From NCBI GenBank assembly GCA_937858705.1, contig CALLZM010000014.1:1-40777 (forward strand): 40,777 bases of DNA, written 5' to 3'. Shown here one piece after another: positions 4,192 to 30,817 of this stretch. The position numbers and the translations under genes are program-made. Every line of letters starts with the position of its first letter. Position 1 is the stretch's first letter. The DNA is from an uncultured Candidatus Saccharibacteria bacterium (lineage in GTDB: Bacteria > Patescibacteriota > Saccharimonadia > Saccharimonadales > Saccharimonadaceae). The notes under the pieces were generated by a model. The model had not been told where the DNA came from. It made no database searches and saw only the letters and a list, made by a program, of their open reading frames with translations.

Positions 4192-5955
4192 TTACTTGCC
4201 GCTTTGTGGGAACAAGAACTTCAAATAGTCTTTTACCATGCGTGCGCCAGAAATGATAGGTAAGTAGGCTATGAGCTGCTTGTGGACATTTTCAACGAGG
4301 AGGTGGTCATCCGCAAGGATAGCACCAGCGGCTCGCATATTGCTGTAGAGTGATTCTACCTCTTCGTGATAATTCTTGCCAACGACTTCAAGGCAGGCGA
4401 TTGGTTTGATGTCGGCCACGCCACCATCGCTAGTGCTGATGAGCATTTTGAGATTGGCGATATCTTTTTCCCATGAGGTACCACAGGCTTCAAGGCCAAT
4501 GATCGGTACATTTATGGCGGTATCGGCACCTATGGCCAAAGCACGGCCAAGCTCTTCATCGTAATCTTGTATGTAATGCACGCGGTTTCGTAGCTCTTCA
4601 TCTTGGTCGATCTGCCCAAGGATATTGCGCAAACGGTCGTACATGACAAAATCGCCTTGGTGTACCTTGCCCGCCAATATGTAGTGGGCATTGTGTTCTA
4701 CTAAAATTCGCTTCAGTTCTTCGGTATCTTCAAACGGCATGAATGGTCGTTTGTAGTCGGCGAAACGGCGTTTGAAGTCGAACAGAATCGCCTCTTCCGG
4801 TATGTGAACAGGGTTGCCGTATTGGTCCATGCGGCGGCCCAAGATGTCGTTCATGGTTTGGCGAGCAAGTTTTTTCAAGCTGCGGATTTCGTCGGCGGTG
4901 ATAGTGGCTATTTTTGCTTCATAATCTTCGGTTGGAAGGCCAAATTTATCGATGATATCTTTTTCCTGATAGAGTTTGAGGGTTTCTGGTAACACCCAAG
5001 TTTCCATATCGATACCATTGGTGACGGCATGGAATTTTACCTTATCGCCATTTTTATCACGGAAGTTAGCTACTTGGGCGTGAAGGCGACTTACGCCATT
5101 TTTGGCCTCAGTTAGCTCGATAGCGAGAATGTTTGGACGAATGAAATCACCATGGAATTGGTCGGATACCCAGCCACGAACAGCGCGGCTTTTGATGTTT
5201 GGCATAACATAACGGTCGAACTGCGAGCGAGAGAACTCGGCTTCGGCGGCTTGCACAAGCGTATGATTTGTGTACAGTGTGTGCTTACGAACATATACGA
5301 TGGCTTCGTAGAGGTTCATACCGTTCGAACAGAGCTCATCGAGGCGGGCAAGAGCAGCAAAAATGGTCGCTGTTTCGTTGAGCTGAATGACAGCTGGTTT
5401 GATACCGGCGACTTTTAGGGCTTTGTAGCCACCAAAGCCAAGAGCCACTTCTTGGTATAGGCGATGGTCACCACTGCCGAGCCCTTGGTATAACTCACCA
5501 AAGTTTGACTCGCCAATCGTGATAAACTGTGTCGAGCCAAGCTGTTTGCGGAAAATATCGAGTTCGGTGCCAAAGCCGTGATCGGTGGTGATGGTGACGG
5601 TGTCGATATACTCGAAGCCGTATTTTCGCGGCGATACAGGGATGGAATATTCTGACTGTGCGAGGCCATTGATGGTTTGGTGTAGCTCTGAGCGGTAGAA
5701 AGGCGTAACTACGACAAATGGAATGTCGAGCTGCTGAGCAACGCGGCGGGTATCGGCCGCCAAAACACCAAGGCCACCACCGCCTTTGATGCCGTTTTCT
5801 TTGTCGTAAATTTCCATTGTCCAATATACATATGGACGAGTATCCGACAACTGATGAGTGAGTGACTGGCGGTTGATCGCTTCATAAAAATCAGAAGCGT
5901 CCTCAATATCTTGCGGTTGATAATTTGTGTTGTTGCGATATATATTTTGATCCAT
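4192..5955 (-). CDS. glgP: Short-form alpha-glucan phosphorylase
   Basis: A 587-aa GT35 enzyme releasing glucose-1-phosphate from alpha-1,4-glucans using pyridoxal phosphate. Family motifs include GGGGLGVLAADT near residue 60, TLYTNHTLVQAAEAEFS, NGVSRLHAQV and VTNGID. The PLP segment starts EACGTS (about 489) and continues to NLKM with the likely Schiff-base Lys near 503, then TSDGG. It holds about five extra residues (WEKDIA) compared with the usual GTS-x-MK spacing. The length fits the short bacterial/archaeal branch rather than the roughly 800-aa form. The start is supported by an AAAAGGG stretch 4 nt upstream and by a TGC-TATACT promoter at 5993-5998, so unlike many neighbours this mRNA has a leader of about 30 nt. 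Confidence 0.88.
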   Translation of the reverse strand: MDQNIYRNNTNYQPQDIEDASDFYEAINRQSLTHQLSDTRPYVYWTMEIYDKENGIKGGGGLGVLAADTRRVAQQLDIPFVVVTPFYRSELHQTINGLAQSEYSIPVSPRKYGFEYIDTVTITTDHGFGTELDIFRKQLGSTQFITIGESNFGELYQGLGSGDHRLYQEVALGFGGYKALKVAGIKPAVIQLNETATIFAALARLDELCSNGMNLYEAIVYVRKHTLYTNHTLVQAAEAEFSRSQFDRYVMPNIKSRAVRGWVSDQFHGDFIRPNILAIELTEAKNGVSRLHAQVANFRDKNGDKVKFHAVTNGIDMETWVLPETLKLYQEKDIIDKFGLPTEDYEAKIATITADEIRSLKKLARQTMNDILGRRMDQYGNPVHIPEEAILFDFKRRFADYKRPFMPFEDTEELKRILVEHNAHYILAGKVHQGDFVMYDRLRNILGQIDQDEELRNRVHYIQDYDEELGRALAIGADTAINVPIIGLEACGTSWEKDIANLKMLISTSDGGVADIKPIACLEVVGKNYHEEVESLYSNMRAAGAILADDHLLVENVHKQLIAYLPIISGARMVKDYLKFLFPQSGK

Positions 5956-15069: not shown

Positions 15070-15531
15070 TTAGCAACCTGTACCGAGAGTGGTATTGTCT
15101 GATTCTCCACCAGCAACCCAGCTAATACGAGCACCAGTGCCACTATTACATTGTGTGTATTGCACGGCGTTTTGATCTACGGCAGTAGTAGTTCGGATAC
15201 TGTTAGGATTGTCGATTTTTGCCTCTTGTGGCCCAAGTGCTGGGGTGCCGTTAGCGGTGCAACCCGCAGTACCGACGCCACTTCCTGATCCAGTAGCGTT
15301 TGTATGATTTAAGGCAAAATTACAGTAGGTTGGGTAGCCTGTCTGTACGGTGTTCCACGCTTCTGCTTTTTTAGCAATCTGTCCTGTGAGCGATTTGGCG
15401 GCACTTATTTTGCCTCGGTTTTGTATACCGTTATACGCCACAATCGAAATGGTCGCAAGAATCGCAATCACGACGATGACGATCAGAAGCTCAACGATGG
15501 TGAAACCGCGAGATTTGATATTGTTTGACAT
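15070..15531 (-). CDS. Type IV major-pilin-like prepilin (copy A)
   Basis: A 153-aa prepilin. The leader MSNNIKSRG is followed by FTIVELLIVIVVIAILATI, a class III cleavage site (G|FTxxE) and the pilin N-terminal helix. The globular part is rich in G, T and N and has several Cys, the last at the C-terminus, suitable for disulfides. The start lies downstream of a promoter at 15576-15604 and a G-rich SD-like stretch. The first 23 codons and the upstream leader are identical at nucleotide level to copy B (98 nt, 15464-15561), then the globular parts diverge, suggesting a recent duplication or conversion with a variable surface domain. Confidence 0.9.
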   Translation of the reverse strand: MSNNIKSRGFTIVELLIVIVVIAILATISIVAYNGIQNRGKISAAKSLTGQIAKKAEAWNTVQTGYPTYCNFALNHTNATGSGSGVGTAGCTANGTPALGPQEAKIDNPNSIRTTTAVDQNAVQYTQCNSGTGARISWVAGGESDNTTLGTGC

Positions 15532-15575
15532 ATTAATTTGTGCCCCCTGCTTTATTAAATAATGGTTATGTTTTT

Positions 15576-15604
15576 ATGATAGCACTGAATGGGAGGAGGT
15601 GCAA
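15576..15604 (-). promoter_or_regulatory. Promoter of pilin copy A
   Basis: -35 TTGCAC (15599-15604), 17-nt spacer, extended -10 TGC-TATCAT (15576-15581). The spacer reads GGGAGGAGG on the plus strand, an interrupted version of the G tract in copy B. Confidence 0.65.
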
Positions 15605-15626
15605 GAGGGGAGCACCACGAGAAATG

Positions 15627-15677: not shown

Positions 15678-16154
15678 TTAAGAAGTTGCAGTACAGCCCG
15701 TCCCTGCCGTGGTTGTGGCTGTGGCTGCTCCAAGCGTTTTTAGTACCGCAACTGGGGTAGATGCTGCGAAGTCCCAGTGCCAAATACAAGCACCACCAGT
15801 TCTCTGTCGATAGACGATTGATTCGCCATTATTGTAGGTTGCTGCCGCACCAACTCCACCTGTGCCGGTACCAGATACATATGCTTTCACTGCTGCAGTG
15901 TTATCGAGCTTTGCTTCAGGCACATCGGCATGAGTAAAGCCAGCTGCATCTACTGGATAAGAGCTCATAACAGTGTTGTAGGCTTCGGCTTTCTTTGCAA
16001 TTTGGCCAGAGAGTGAAGCTCCCGACGATGTCTTGGCCCTATTCTGGATACCGTTATACGCCACTATCGAGATAGTTGCCAAAATGGCAATCACGACGAT
16101 GACGATCAGAAGCTCAACGATGGTGAAACCGCGAGATTTGATATTGTTTGACAT
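15678..16154 (-). CDS. Type IV major-pilin-like prepilin (copy B)
   Basis: A 158-aa prepilin with the same leader and N-terminal helix as copy A (MSNNIKSRG|FTIVELLIV). The globular domain differs, with AKLDNTAAVKAYVSGTG, then YRQRTGGACIWHWDF and a C-terminal GTGC. The related YNNGESIVYRQR and YKSGKAVVYRL elements link it to the 16247 pilin. It has its own terminator and promoter. The promoter spacer contains an uninterrupted run of nine G, a possible phase switch. Likely a pilus fibre subunit; which paralogue is the major one cannot be told from sequence. Confidence 0.9.
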   Translation of the reverse strand: MSNNIKSRGFTIVELLIVIVVIAILATISIVAYNGIQNRAKTSSGASLSGQIAKKAEAYNTVMSSYPVDAAGFTHADVPEAKLDNTAAVKAYVSGTGTGGVGAAATYNNGESIVYRQRTGGACIWHWDFAASTPVAVLKTLGAATATTTAGTGCTATS

Positions 16155-16198
16155 ATTAATTTGTGCCCCCTGCTTTATTAAATAGTTGTTATGTTTTT

Positions 16199-16227
16199 AT
16201 GATAGCACTGAATGGGGGGGGGTGCAA
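16199..16227 (-). promoter_or_regulatory. Promoter of pilin copy B with poly-G spacer
   Basis: -35 TTGCAC (16222-16227), spacer of exactly 17 nt, extended -10 TGC-TATCAT (16199-16204). The spacer includes nine consecutive G (16214-16222, the last overlapping the -35). Slippage would change the -35/-10 spacing. Confidence 0.65.
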
Positions 16228-16246
16228 GAGGTCCATGTAGCTTTAG

Positions 16247-27411: not shown

Positions 27412-28227
27412 GTGCGAAAACAGCAATTTCAAGAGTTATTACAGCGAAAAGGTTGTGAACTATATCGTGATATGCCATGGCGGCAAGATACACGGCCGTA
27501 TTATATATTGGTGAGCGAGCTCATGCTTCAGCAAACGCAAGTAGCTAGGGTTGTGCCAAAGTTTGAGCGGTTTATCGCCCAGTTTCCAGATGAAACGACA
27601 CTAGCGGATGCGAGTTTAGCAGAGGTGTTGGTACAGTGGCAGGGTCTGGGCTATAATCGCCGGGCGAAGTTTTTGTGGCAAGCTGCACAGATGGTGGTAC
27701 GGGAGTATAGTGGCCAATTTCCTCGGGATATACAAGGGCTATTGAGTTTGCCTGGTGTAGGTAAGAATACCGCCGGTGCAATAATGGCCTATGCGCATAA
27801 CCAGCCAAGTATTTTTATCGAAACCAATATCCGTACTGTATATATTCACCATTTTTTTCAAGACGCAACTACAGTGACCGATACAGAGATTGCTAAAAAG
27901 CTCCAAGCGACACTTGACTGTGAGAACCCACGAACATTTTACTGGGCCTTGATGGACTATGGTGCATACCTGAAGTCGCAAGGTATCAAGACAAATAGTC
28001 GCTCGCAGCAGTATAAAAAACAATCAAAACTCGAAGGGAGTATTCGTCAAGTTCGTGGGCAGATTGTTAAGGCGCTGGCTGAGCATACTCAGCTTTCACA
28101 GCGAGACCTACGGAGGCTTCTTGAAGCTGATGATCGATTTGATATAGCTATGCAAGGACTCATAAGAGATGGGATTATCTGCGTAGAGCATGACGAGGCT
28201 ACGCTATGCAGCCAGAAAATGATATAA
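27412..28227 (+). CDS. mutY: MutY-like A/G-specific adenine glycosylase lacking the iron-sulfur cluster
   Basis: A 271-aa HhH-GPD glycosylase. PWRQDTRPYYILVSELMLQQTQV carries the MutY catalytic Glu (Glu36), and WQGLGYNRRAKFL and LLSLPGVGKNTAGAI (the HhH motif) follow. The position of the catalytic Asp of the superfamily holds Glu137 (FIETNIRTVY). After MDYGAYLKSQ, where MutY normally has the C-x6-C-x2-C-x5-C cluster loop, no cysteines are found, so the [4Fe-4S] cluster is lost. The NUDIX-like C-terminal domain is also missing; instead about 50 residues form a winged-helix-like tail. The family removes A mispaired with 8-oxoG. Start: GTG 6 nt after TATACT. Confidence 0.85.
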   Translation: MRKQQFQELLQRKGCELYRDMPWRQDTRPYYILVSELMLQQTQVARVVPKFERFIAQFPDETTLADASLAEVLVQWQGLGYNRRAKFLWQAAQMVVREYSGQFPRDIQGLLSLPGVGKNTAGAIMAYAHNQPSIFIETNIRTVYIHHFFQDATTVTDTEIAKKLQATLDCENPRTFYWALMDYGAYLKSQGIKTNSRSQQYKKQSKLEGSIRQVRGQIVKALAEHTQLSQRDLRRLLEADDRFDIAMQGLIRDGIICVEHDEATLCSQKMI

Positions 28228-28228
28228 T
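28223..28228 (+). promoter_or_regulatory. Extended -10 box of the 28235 operon
   Basis: TGA-TATAAT, 6 nt before the ATG, inside the 3' end of the mutY-like gene. Confidence 0.6.
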
Positions 28229-28234
28229 GAACCT

Positions 28235-28753
28235 ATGCAAAAGGTTGTTATATTGCTCAGTGTGCTAGGAGTATCTCTGGCGCTTGCTATGCCAGTTTTG
28301 GCAAGAGATTTCGTATTGAGCGATCAGCAGATTGAAGATATTCGTGCGAGCTGCGTGAAGTCGCAGGCTGCTTTGAAGCGAGTTCATACCTCTGATGCGC
28401 TGTTACGGGTTAATATCGGCCAGCGATATGAAAATATTTCGCTTCGACTGATGGCCCCGCTCAATAGCCGGATAGCGCTAAATGGTCTCGATGTAGTTGA
28501 TCTAGCAACGACGACCACTAGCTATAACCAAGAGCTGAAAGATTTCGTAAAAAACTATCGTGAATATGAAACAACAGTCGCAAATGCTCTCAAGCTGAAA
28601 TGTAGCGAGCAGCCTGTTGAATATTATTCATTAGTGGACGCATCCCGTGAAGGCAGGGCGTTTGTACGGGCAAATATGGTACGGCTAGACCAGCTAATTA
28701 AGCAATATCGTAGCCAGGTGAGTGATTTTAGCCAGAAGCGAGATCTCAAATGA
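28235..28753 (+). CDS. Secreted helical protein of unknown function
   Basis: A 172-aa protein with a signal peptide (VVILLSVLGVSLALAMPVLA, cleavage after ALA at about 23). The mature part is mostly helical, with two Cys (ASCVKSQ, LKCSEQP), and may be a small helical bundle exposed at the surface. Leaderless start. An ATGA overlap links it to the next membrane-anchored protein, and the same operon continues into tsaC and trmB. I recognise no family. Confidence 0.65.
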   Translation: MQKVVILLSVLGVSLALAMPVLARDFVLSDQQIEDIRASCVKSQAALKRVHTSDALLRVNIGQRYENISLRLMAPLNSRIALNGLDVVDLATTTTSYNQELKDFVKNYREYETTVANALKLKCSEQPVEYYSLVDASREGRAFVRANMVRLDQLIKQYRSQVSDFSQKRDLK

Positions 28754-29127: not shown

Positions 29128-29687
29128 TGTACTATCAGCTTGTTGATTCGCTTCTTGATGATGCCGTCATCTCTGCACTAAAGAATGGTGATATTATTGT
29201 GTTGCGGACGGACACTCTATACGGGGTGTTGGCTCGTGCTAATGATGATCGGGCGGTAGAGAAGGTGTATGCAGCCAAGCGGCGATCGCAAGATAAGTCA
29301 TCTATCGTATTGATCTCTTCTGTCGACCAATTGTATGATCAACCTACAGAGACGGAAAAGCAACTGATGGAGAGCGTGTGGCCTGGCCCGAATAGCGTGA
29401 TTGTGAAGGGCACTCGGGCGCCTTTGTGGCTGCGGCGAGACAATGGTTCGGTGGCATATCGGTTGCCAGATTATGCAGAACTACAACAGCTTATAGATCA
29501 AGTTGGTCCGCTCATTGCCCCGAGCGCAAACCCTGAAGGGCATGTTCCGGCTACGACTATCCAAGAAGCTATCGATTACTTTGGTGATTCAGTAGCAGTG
29601 TTTGTTGACGGCGGCATAGTTGAGTCGGCCAAACCGTCGGGTTTGTATCGGGTGAACGATAGTGGGGAAGTCGAGAAGGTTCGATGA
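29127..29687 (+). CDS. tsaC: Threonylcarbamoyladenylate synthase (Sua5/YciO/YrdC family)
   Basis: A 186-aa YrdC-domain protein making the TC-AMP intermediate for t6A37 in ANN-decoding tRNAs. Visible are VLRTDTLYGVLARANDD (substrate pocket), KRRSQDKSSIVLI, VWPGPNSVIV, VAYRLPD and PLIAPSANPEG. It is the short TsaC form without the Sua5 domain. It starts at the TAATG overlap with the membrane protein and ends in an ATGA overlap with trmB, so both tRNA-modification genes are coupled. Confidence 0.9.
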   Translation: MYYQLVDSLLDDAVISALKNGDIIVLRTDTLYGVLARANDDRAVEKVYAAKRRSQDKSSIVLISSVDQLYDQPTETEKQLMESVWPGPNSVIVKGTRAPLWLRRDNGSVAYRLPDYAELQQLIDQVGPLIAPSANPEGHVPATTIQEAIDYFGDSVAVFVDGGIVESAKPSGLYRVNDSGEVEKVR

Positions 29688-30463
29688 TCGATCCAAAAGA
29701 GTTTATCATCACCAGAAAGCGCAAAAAATATAAATTTGCCAAGTTTGCAAATGCAAGAAATTGTTTTGAGTTCGATGAATGGCTAGCCATGCGACGACAA
29801 AACGACAACGAAAGCATCTCAATTTGCGCCGGGCCTGGCCCGGCGCAAACAGGGGTGACTCGTGGTCAAAGTGCGCCGGGCCTGGCCCGGCGCAAAGTGG
29901 ATGTGGTAGAGGTTGGTGCTGGGACGGGGTTGTTTGTAGTGGAGCTGGCGGCGAGATATCCAGAGACGGTATTTGCGGCGGTGGATGTCAAAGCAGACCG
30001 GCTGCAAAAGGGTGCGTATGAAGCGCTGGAGCGGAATCTTGCAAATGTTTATTTTATCCGCGCTCGTGCCGATCAGGTAGATGAACTATTCGAGCCTCAT
30101 TCACTTCAGGGAATTTGGTTGACCTTTTCCGATCCATTTCCAAAAAAGCGCTCGGCTGGCCGTCGCCTCACTCATTCAACATACTTACGCAAATACGCCG
30201 ACCTATTGTGCTTGAGGCCTGGCCTCAAGCAGGATTCTGGTCGGGGCGGGCTGTATATCAAGCATGACAATCTGGAGTTTTTTCAGTGGAGTTTGGAGCA
30301 GCTGGTTGCGCAAAAGTGGCGGATCGACGAGTTGAGTTTCGACCTTCACGAATCGGAGCTGTCAAATGACTATAAAATTCTCACATCGTACGAGCAGCGC
30401 TGGCTTGAAGAGGGGCGAATAACGCAGTTTGTGCAAGCTTTGCCTCCTCGTGCCGACAGATGA
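29684..30463 (+). CDS. trmB: tRNA (guanine-N7)-methyltransferase-like protein with palindromic insertions
   Basis: A 259-aa SAM-dependent methyltransferase expected to make m7G46 in tRNA. The SAM motif is VVEVGAGTGLF (about 76-86) and the TrmB signature FSDPFPKKRSAGRRL lies near 149-163, followed by LYIKHDN. Compared with a usual size of 210-240 aa it carries extra residues at two places, each coinciding with GC-rich DNA palindromes: residues about 47-71 (CAGPGPAQTGVTRGQSAPG) before the SAM motif, and about 176-184 (LCLRPGLKQDSG). The insertions keep the frame and probably sit in loops. Confidence 0.85.
   Translation: MIDPKEFIITRKRKKYKFAKFANARNCFEFDEWLAMRRQNDNESISICAGPGPAQTGVTRGQSAPGLARRKVDVVEVGAGTGLFVVELAARYPETVFAAVDVKADRLQKGAYEALERNLANVYFIRARADQVDELFEPHSLQGIWLTFSDPFPKKRSAGRRLTHSTYLRKYADLLCLRPGLKQDSGRGGLYIKHDNLEFFQWSLEQLVAQKWRIDELSFDLHESELSNDYKILTSYEQRWLEEGRITQFVQALPPRADR
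29823..29849. repeat. Intragenic palindrome 1 in trmB
   Basis: Perfect 13-bp arms (TTTGCGCCGGGCC and complement) around one T; the core is GGCCTGGCC. Confidence 0.8.
29872..29894. repeat. Intragenic palindrome 2 in trmB
   Basis: Perfect 11-bp arms (TGCGCCGGGCC and complement) around one T. It repeats palindrome 1 after a 22-nt gap. Confidence 0.8.
30210..30230. repeat. Intragenic palindrome 3 in trmB
   Basis: Perfect 10-bp arms (GCTTGAGGCC and complement) around one T. It has the same GGCCTGGCC core but different, still complementary flanks. Confidence 0.8.
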
Positions 30464-30469
30464 TACAAT
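30464..30469 (+). promoter_or_regulatory. Extended -10 box of the mazG-like gene
   Basis: TGA-TACAAT, 6 nt before the ATG; it starts right after the trmB stop. Confidence 0.6.
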
Positions 30470-30475
30470 AAACCT

Positions 30476-30817
30476 ATGCAAATAAATGATTATACAAAAA
30501 CAGCACTATCTACTTTGGGTGATGAGCATGCGTACGGTGAGGTAACACCAAAACTTATGGCGCAAGTATTGGGGCTTGTTGGGGAAAGTGGCGAAGTAGC
30601 CGAGAAGTTTAAAAAGATATTGCGAGATAAGCAAGGAAAACTTTCTGAGGAAGAGAAAAAAGAGCTCGTGAAGGAGCTAGGCGATATATTGTGGTATATC
30701 AATGCTGTGGCTCACCTGCTGGGTTCAAATCTTGAAGAGGTGGCTAAGGCAAATAACGAAAAGTTGGCGAGTCGTAAAAACCGTGGTGTTCTGAGCGGCA
30801 GCGGAGATAACCGCTAG
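30476..30817 (+). CDS. MazG-like nucleotide pyrophosphohydrolase
   Basis: A 113-aa single MazG domain. The Mg-binding pattern is visible: LGLVGESGEVAEKFKK (E-x-x-E) and later KELGDILWYINAVAHLLG (E-x-x-D), ending in the NEKLASRKNRG tail common to this group. Such enzymes hydrolyse NTPs or dNTPs to monophosphates for pool cleaning. Leaderless start. Its stop overlaps the murC stop on the other strand in a shared CTAG. Confidence 0.88.
   Translation: MQINDYTKTALSTLGDEHAYGEVTPKLMAQVLGLVGESGEVAEKFKKILRDKQGKLSEEEKKELVKELGDILWYINAVAHLLGSNLEEVAKANNEKLASRKNRGVLSGSGDNR

Follow-up and report, generated by a model that had tools for sequence, protein, structure and literature searches.

Why should a gene for a tRNA-modifying enzyme carry three perfect palindromes inside its reading frame? 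The gene in question is trmB, and it lies in a stretch of 40,777 nucleotides (the window) from an uncultured Candidatus Saccharibacteria bacterium. An earlier note, made from the letters of the window alone, had described three odd palindromes in this gene, each centred on a T and built on a common core. It placed them where the protein has extra residues and likened them to the Rickettsia palindromic elements (RPEs) that invade genes in frame. All three were found where they had been described (Table 1): each is perfect and odd, has a central T and the core GGCCTGGCC, and leaves the frame open.

Table 1. Features of the trmB region, in window positions
Feature	Position	Strand	Evidence or remark
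Host gene trmB, tRNA (guanine-N7)-methyltransferase, 259 aa	29684..30463	+	PF02390, E 1.3e-25; NCBIfam TrmB, E 3.2e-38
Palindrome 1, TTTGCGCCGGGCCTGGCCCGGCGCAAA, arms 13 bp, read as CAGPGPAQ	29823..29849		DNA hairpin -16.5 kcal/mol, z -4.8
Palindrome 2, TGCGCCGGGCCTGGCCCGGCGCA, arms 11 bp, read as APGLARR	29872..29894		DNA hairpin -15 kcal/mol, z -5.1
Palindrome 3, TGCTTGAGGCCTGGCCTCAAGCA, arms 11 bp, type-B arms, read as CLRPGLK	30209..30231
Site 1, net 102-nt segment without counterpart in orthologues	29787..29888	+	Protein and nucleotide alignments; placement alignment-dependent
Site 2, net 27-nt segment without counterpart in orthologues, matches palindrome 3	30216..30242	+	Placement alignment-dependent
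GGCCTGGCC outside the family, WPGP codons of sua5/yrdC	29380..29388	+	Arm just 4 bp; PF01300

The window contains three odd palindromes whose arms reach 10 bp or more; 30 dinucleotide-preserving shuffles contain none. As single-stranded DNA, each of those in trmB folds much better than shuffled sequence (z about -5), and palindromes 1 and 2 together form a single long hairpin of -42.3 kcal/mol (z -10). These two are near-identical as DNA and yet are read in different frames (CAGPGPAQ versus APGLARR), which excludes a repeated protein motif.

A small dispersed family

Is the palindrome confined to trmB? The genome, 910,258 bases in 31 contigs, contains GGCCTGGCC 12 times and the reversed control pattern 0 times. 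Nine of the 12 occurrences are a 23-bp palindrome of the form TGC-NNNN-GGCC-T-GGCC-NNNN-GCA. The family is sharply bounded, with nine copies at 0 to 1 mismatch, no additional one at 2, and chance matches only at 3, although copies were located by pattern search alone and degenerate ones may be missed. They are spread over three contigs, with three in trmB, two in truB, two in the spacer between ruvB and a gene for a RAYT-like transposase (described below), and two intergenic (loci L001 and L005). The truB copies stand 33 bp apart, centre to centre, and the arms of one have decayed. The other occurrences of the core, at 29380 in the Sua5/YrdC gene and at L003 and L006, were rejected as members, being ordinary coding sequence without arms. 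A common dimer spacer was also ruled out: the spacers of paired copies measure 10, 24, and 44 nt and differ in sequence, and no fixed dimeric unit is evident.

The copies differ in their arms, which are of type GCCG, TTGA, TCTA, or TCCA, each with its matching complement. Among nine distinct copies from three genomes, both sides have changed in 4 of 11 pairs, and the covariation score is 0.311, versus 0.125 in shuffles and at most 0.10 when the alignment is slid. The compensated changes that the earlier note had seen between copies are thus real. They arrive in 4-bp blocks, probably through few events rather than many independent substitutions, and the selecting agent is likely to be recognition by the transposase. 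In the commonest arm type all six frames lack stop codons, which should make survival in frame easier; the TTGA and TCTA types do contain stops.

In-frame insertions in trmB and truB

The earlier note had proposed aligning TrmB orthologues and had taken the same residues without any palindrome as grounds for rejecting its idea; that outcome did not occur. None of the 29 aligned orthologues, two of the same genus included, has the residues of either site. They are shorter by about 34 residues at site 1 and by 9 at site 2: in the numbering of the window protein, they pass straight from about position 34 to 69, with a further gap of nine residues at about 176 to 184. Counted in nucleotides, the net differences amount to 102 and 27. 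The 102 nt of site 1 take in most of the pair formed by palindromes 1 and 2, plus about 38 nt upstream that neither palindrome nor spacer explains. At site 1 a few ordinary additional residues are present in some orthologues, so as many as about ten of the residues at that site need not be part of the element. In truB, an insert of 17 residues (51 nt) sits at the palindrome pair and is found in 0 of 29 TruB orthologues. Open reading frames run through five palindromes in two genes.

Where do the inserts fall in the proteins? In an alignment to solved TrmB, site 1 precedes strand one of the methyltransferase fold and site 2 falls in the turn leading into the KTDN/KHDN strand, and in an alignment to solved TruB the insert falls in the loop following the DAEGQ/DADGQ segment; we take these to be the strands and loops concerned. 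A single-sequence AlphaFold model of TrmB (pLDDT 36) was discarded, and loop placement rests on the alignments to the solved proteins. On the evidence of these alignments, the copies in trmB and truB were inserted at loops, in frame, and are specific to this lineage. The likeness to RPE-style invasion is borne out by this comparison, and the same family has also entered truB in frame.

A transposase partner beside ruvB

What might move such an element? The open reading frame at L004, 1373-1987, beside the two ruvB-side palindromes, encodes an IS200-like Y1 transposase (PF01797, E 5.6e-9, above the cut-off). Its sole NCBIfam match is REP_Tyr_transpos, the REP-associated tyrosine transposase (RAYT) family, at E 6e-10, and at 39.2 bits versus 80 this match misses the curated cut-off. 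The HUH motif NHVHLL and the Y motif RYIHRNP can be read directly, and the invariant histidines and tyrosine are common to the related protein of genome G077; the tyrosine of the Y motif is presumably the catalytic one. A search of the PDB by sequence found no relatives of the protein.

As the earlier note had suggested, related genomes were searched for the palindrome. Among 150 relatives, the family is confined to the genome under study and G077, which belongs to another genus and holds an exact copy of the 23-mer of palindrome 3. The closest transposase is also that of G077 (contig JAPUDS010000005.1, Candidatus Saccharibacteria), at 73% identity, with the rest at 59% or less; it, too, lies next to ruvB and is flanked by palindromes on either side. 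A scan of genome contigs turned up a further transposase, 62% identical, in UBA1949; it likewise adjoins ruvB and is flanked on both sides by palindromes with arms of the TCTA type. Beside this gene stands CTCTAGGCCAGGCCTAGAG, which has the arm type of the intergenic copy in L001. In the genome of the window the adjoining palindromes lie on the 5' side only. At this conserved place between RAYT gene and ruvB, the arms differ, with compensation, across three genomes, and palindrome and transposase co-occur and co-vary.

The association extends beyond these three. At RAYT loci, odd palindromes number 2.24/kb within 200 bp of the gene versus 0.031/kb farther off, an enrichment of about 70-fold. 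They occur near the gene in 14 of 29 loci, and the more distant RAYTs have other palindromes of their own; one distant genome, UBA10108, has its own version in seven copies. No perfect palindrome with an arm of at least 8 adjoins the second Y1 transposase gene in the genome under study (L007).

Several details of these loci deserve mention. In all three genomes the RAYT gene has a promoter-like pair, TTGCNC and TATAAT, whose 17-bp spacer is the palindrome itself; the TATAAT lies 12 nt before the ATG (L004, about 1985-2030; L138 and L139, about 4940-5000). This arrangement suggests self-control by the transposase. The spacer between the RAYT gene and ruvB (L004, 1999-2088) contains palindrome, 44 nt, and palindrome in the genome under study, versus a single palindrome in the other two. 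In G077, two paralogous places (L045 and L046, around 1501-1523) share long flanks and the palindrome, with T at the centre of one versus A at that of the other, as though a single flip or mutation of the hairpin had separated them.

Relation to known systems

In canonical REPs the foot of the stem bears the conserved tetranucleotide GT[AG]G. A GTAG, GTGG, or CGTC tag at that position was found in 0 of 14 copies, in either orientation; one GTGG lies 6 nt away. With no GTAG or CGTC tag, the palindromes are not canonical REPs. They nonetheless have much in common with GTAG REPs and their RAYTs, together called REPtrons (Nunvar 2010, PMC2817692; Di Nocera 2013, PMC3733652): a palindrome of 20 to 40 bp (here 23 to 27 bp) that is dispersed, flanks one Y1 transposase gene, comes partly in pairs, undergoes compensated change beside a RAYT that keeps its place, and is occasionally intragenic. 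RAYTs and their REPs have been reported to co-vary in the manner seen here (PMC2817692). The differences are the absent tag, the perfect odd symmetry about one central base, and numbers: GTAG REPs are mostly extragenic and of high copy number, whereas here there are only nine copies, five of them in genes. The palindromes work like a REP/RAYT system, and membership among the GTAG REPs fails on the tag.

Untagged relatives have been published, namely, TnpAY1 subclass 2.6 (PMC6006769) and RAYTs flanked by self-complementary terminal repeats (PMC3733652). These resemble the present case in that untagged secondary structures or self-complementary repeats flank the gene and have genomic copies; no mention of Saccharibacteria was found in the report on subclass 2.6. 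RPEs (PMC3767692) are likewise palindromic repeats in open frames that keep the frame and are missing from orthologues of other lineages, and they strike tRNA-related genes, truB among them (PMC3733652). RPEs, however, are rickettsial and 100 to 150 bp long, whereas the units here are 23 to 27 bp, linked to a RAYT, and leave net inserts of 27, 51, and 102 nt. The sequences look unrelated. CGTC REPs (PMC3733652) are also short palindromic repeats, some of them intragenic, and an element of genome G044 (described below) resembles them; the window element differs in having no CGTC tag and in having a transposase partner.

How might the palindromes have spread?

The palindromes are best seen as copies of one small, dispersed REP-like element, and the protein that mobilizes it is very likely the RAYT-like HUH/Y1 transposase beside ruvB. 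Characterized RAYTs bind REP hairpins in single-stranded form and cut them (PMC8266576). The family, its association with the transposase, its covariation, and its lineage-specific insertions are observed; the steps that follow are inferred by analogy. The RAYT would recognize the single-stranded GGCCTGGCC hairpin, cut, and rejoin, and new copies, single or paired, would be seeded in the process. With so much of this 0.9-Mb genome coding, many copies would land in genes. The survivors would be copies between genes or in frame in tolerant loops, where the inserted peptides are probably tolerated passengers. The best reading is one of untagged REP-like elements that a RAYT mobilizes and that surface loops of the proteins tolerate. 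Counting against it are the absent tag, a transposase below its curated cut-off, a total of only nine copies, the unequal spacers, and the roughly 38 of 102 nt at site 1 that go unexplained.

Could another enzyme be responsible? The palindromes might be RPE- or MITE-like elements that were moved by a different protein or copied by recombination, with the copies at the RAYT gene incidental. Such systems have precedents, as Di Nocera 2013 reports CGTC REPs without any associated transposase (PMC3733652) and related genomes hold unrelated in-frame palindromic repeats with no transposase identified for them. The presence, absence, and arm type of the palindrome nevertheless follow the RAYT over three genomes, and further RAYTs of the group are flanked by different palindromes of their own, which leaves this alternative unlikely.

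A second possibility, and a distinctly less probable one, is that the hairpins are retained in trmB and truB for regulation, whether as mRNA elements (attenuation, ribosome pausing, or mRNA protection) or as sites for DNA-protein contact. The RNA of the trmB region is indeed very stable (z -4.9) and the trmB hairpins are intact, but no aligned orthologue has them, an Rfam search of the region returned no family, and the sites coincide with insertions of unrelated repeats in other genera. Gly/Pro/Ala/Arg-rich loops do exist in proteins, and the palindromes could in principle be ordinary low-complexity protein sequence that is palindromic in DNA by chance; this is refuted by near-identical DNA read in different frames, by the recurrence of the same 23-mer elsewhere in the genome and in another genus, by the shuffles, and by the orthologues, and merits hardly any credence. 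Equally little can be said for an artefact of metagenome assembly, even in a genome of 31 contigs and with palindromes able to hamper assembly, given frames open through five palindromes in two genes and a family that recurs on three contigs as well as in a genome assembled independently.

Unrelated repeats in the same loops of other genera

Are the TrmB linker and the TruB loop peculiar to this one element? Two distant TrmB orthologues, from genomes G008 and G022, have other extra segments in that linker. That of G008 is a 111-bp hairpin element with 16 matches in its genome, itself included, and that of G022 is a CATCCTGAG-type hairpin repeat with 6 matches. The TruB loop holds a 28-bp palindrome, CTGGATTCCGGGTCAAGCCCGGAATGAC, in G044 (48 copies in the genome) and a hairpin repeat in G003 (7 matches, mostly partial). 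The inserts of G008, G003, and G022 fold as long hairpins, and that of G044 is palindromic by sequence. These repeats come from four related genera, and together with the window family they make five unrelated repeat families, three in the TrmB linker and three in the TruB loop, one being in both.

These repeats have entered other genes as well. The G008 repeat, whose peptide resembles ARLSKDGERVSDEPRDDGREERRG, is in frame in recognizable housekeeping genes at 10 of 15 loci: trmB, recG, a Mur ligase, transketolase, pheT, a LepA-like GTPase, undecaprenyl diphosphate synthase, metG, typA, and a glycosyltransferase. Of the 40 copies examined in G044, six lie in frame within recognizable genes, encoding TruB, Obg GTPase, an exonuclease III-type nuclease, TsaD, Pgi, and cysteine desulfurase (some named by eye within a Pfam family). 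The G022 repeat is in frame in rnhA and, by eye, in the genes for ribulose-phosphate 3-epimerase and pheT. These are single-genome observations, mostly from draft genomes.

Palindromes inserted in frame are best known from Rickettsia, for which it was left open whether shared insertion sites are hotspots or the trace of one ancient insertion (PMC3767692). The presence of five unrelated families at one or other of these two places, the TrmB linker and the TruB loop, in different genera favours the hotspot reading for those loops. truB is already known as a target of REPs in S. maltophilia, E. litoralis, and S. alaskensis and of RPE-1 in R. conorii (PMC3733652). A broader proposition, which we regard as evenly balanced, is that Saccharibacteria are under continual in-frame invasion of essential genes by at least five unrelated palindromic families, one of them moved by an untagged RAYT with the palindrome in its own promoter, and that the TrmB and TruB loops are recurrent landing sites across genera and even phyla.

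How much of this is new? Intragenic REPs and RPEs in open frames (PMC3767692) were already known. A search of a library of open-access papers found no report of such elements in Saccharibacteria, and as far as those papers show, untagged RAYT-linked palindromes in this group, trmB as a target, and the separate arrival of unrelated repeats in the same loops are new. The RAYT partner offers a plausible and testable mechanism for the trmB and truB elements, and the inserts account for odd extra peptides of a kind that misleads annotation and alignment. More generally, Saccharibacteria provide natural experiments in which reduced genomes gain protein segments from mobile DNA.

Two further observations concern the window itself. 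Positions 15410-15608 and 16033-16231 are direct copies of 199 nt, 91% identical and 623 bp apart. At 28219-28241 and 30460-30482, near-identical TATAAT/TACAAT-AACCT-ATG sequences stand right before gene starts and resemble leaderless promoters.
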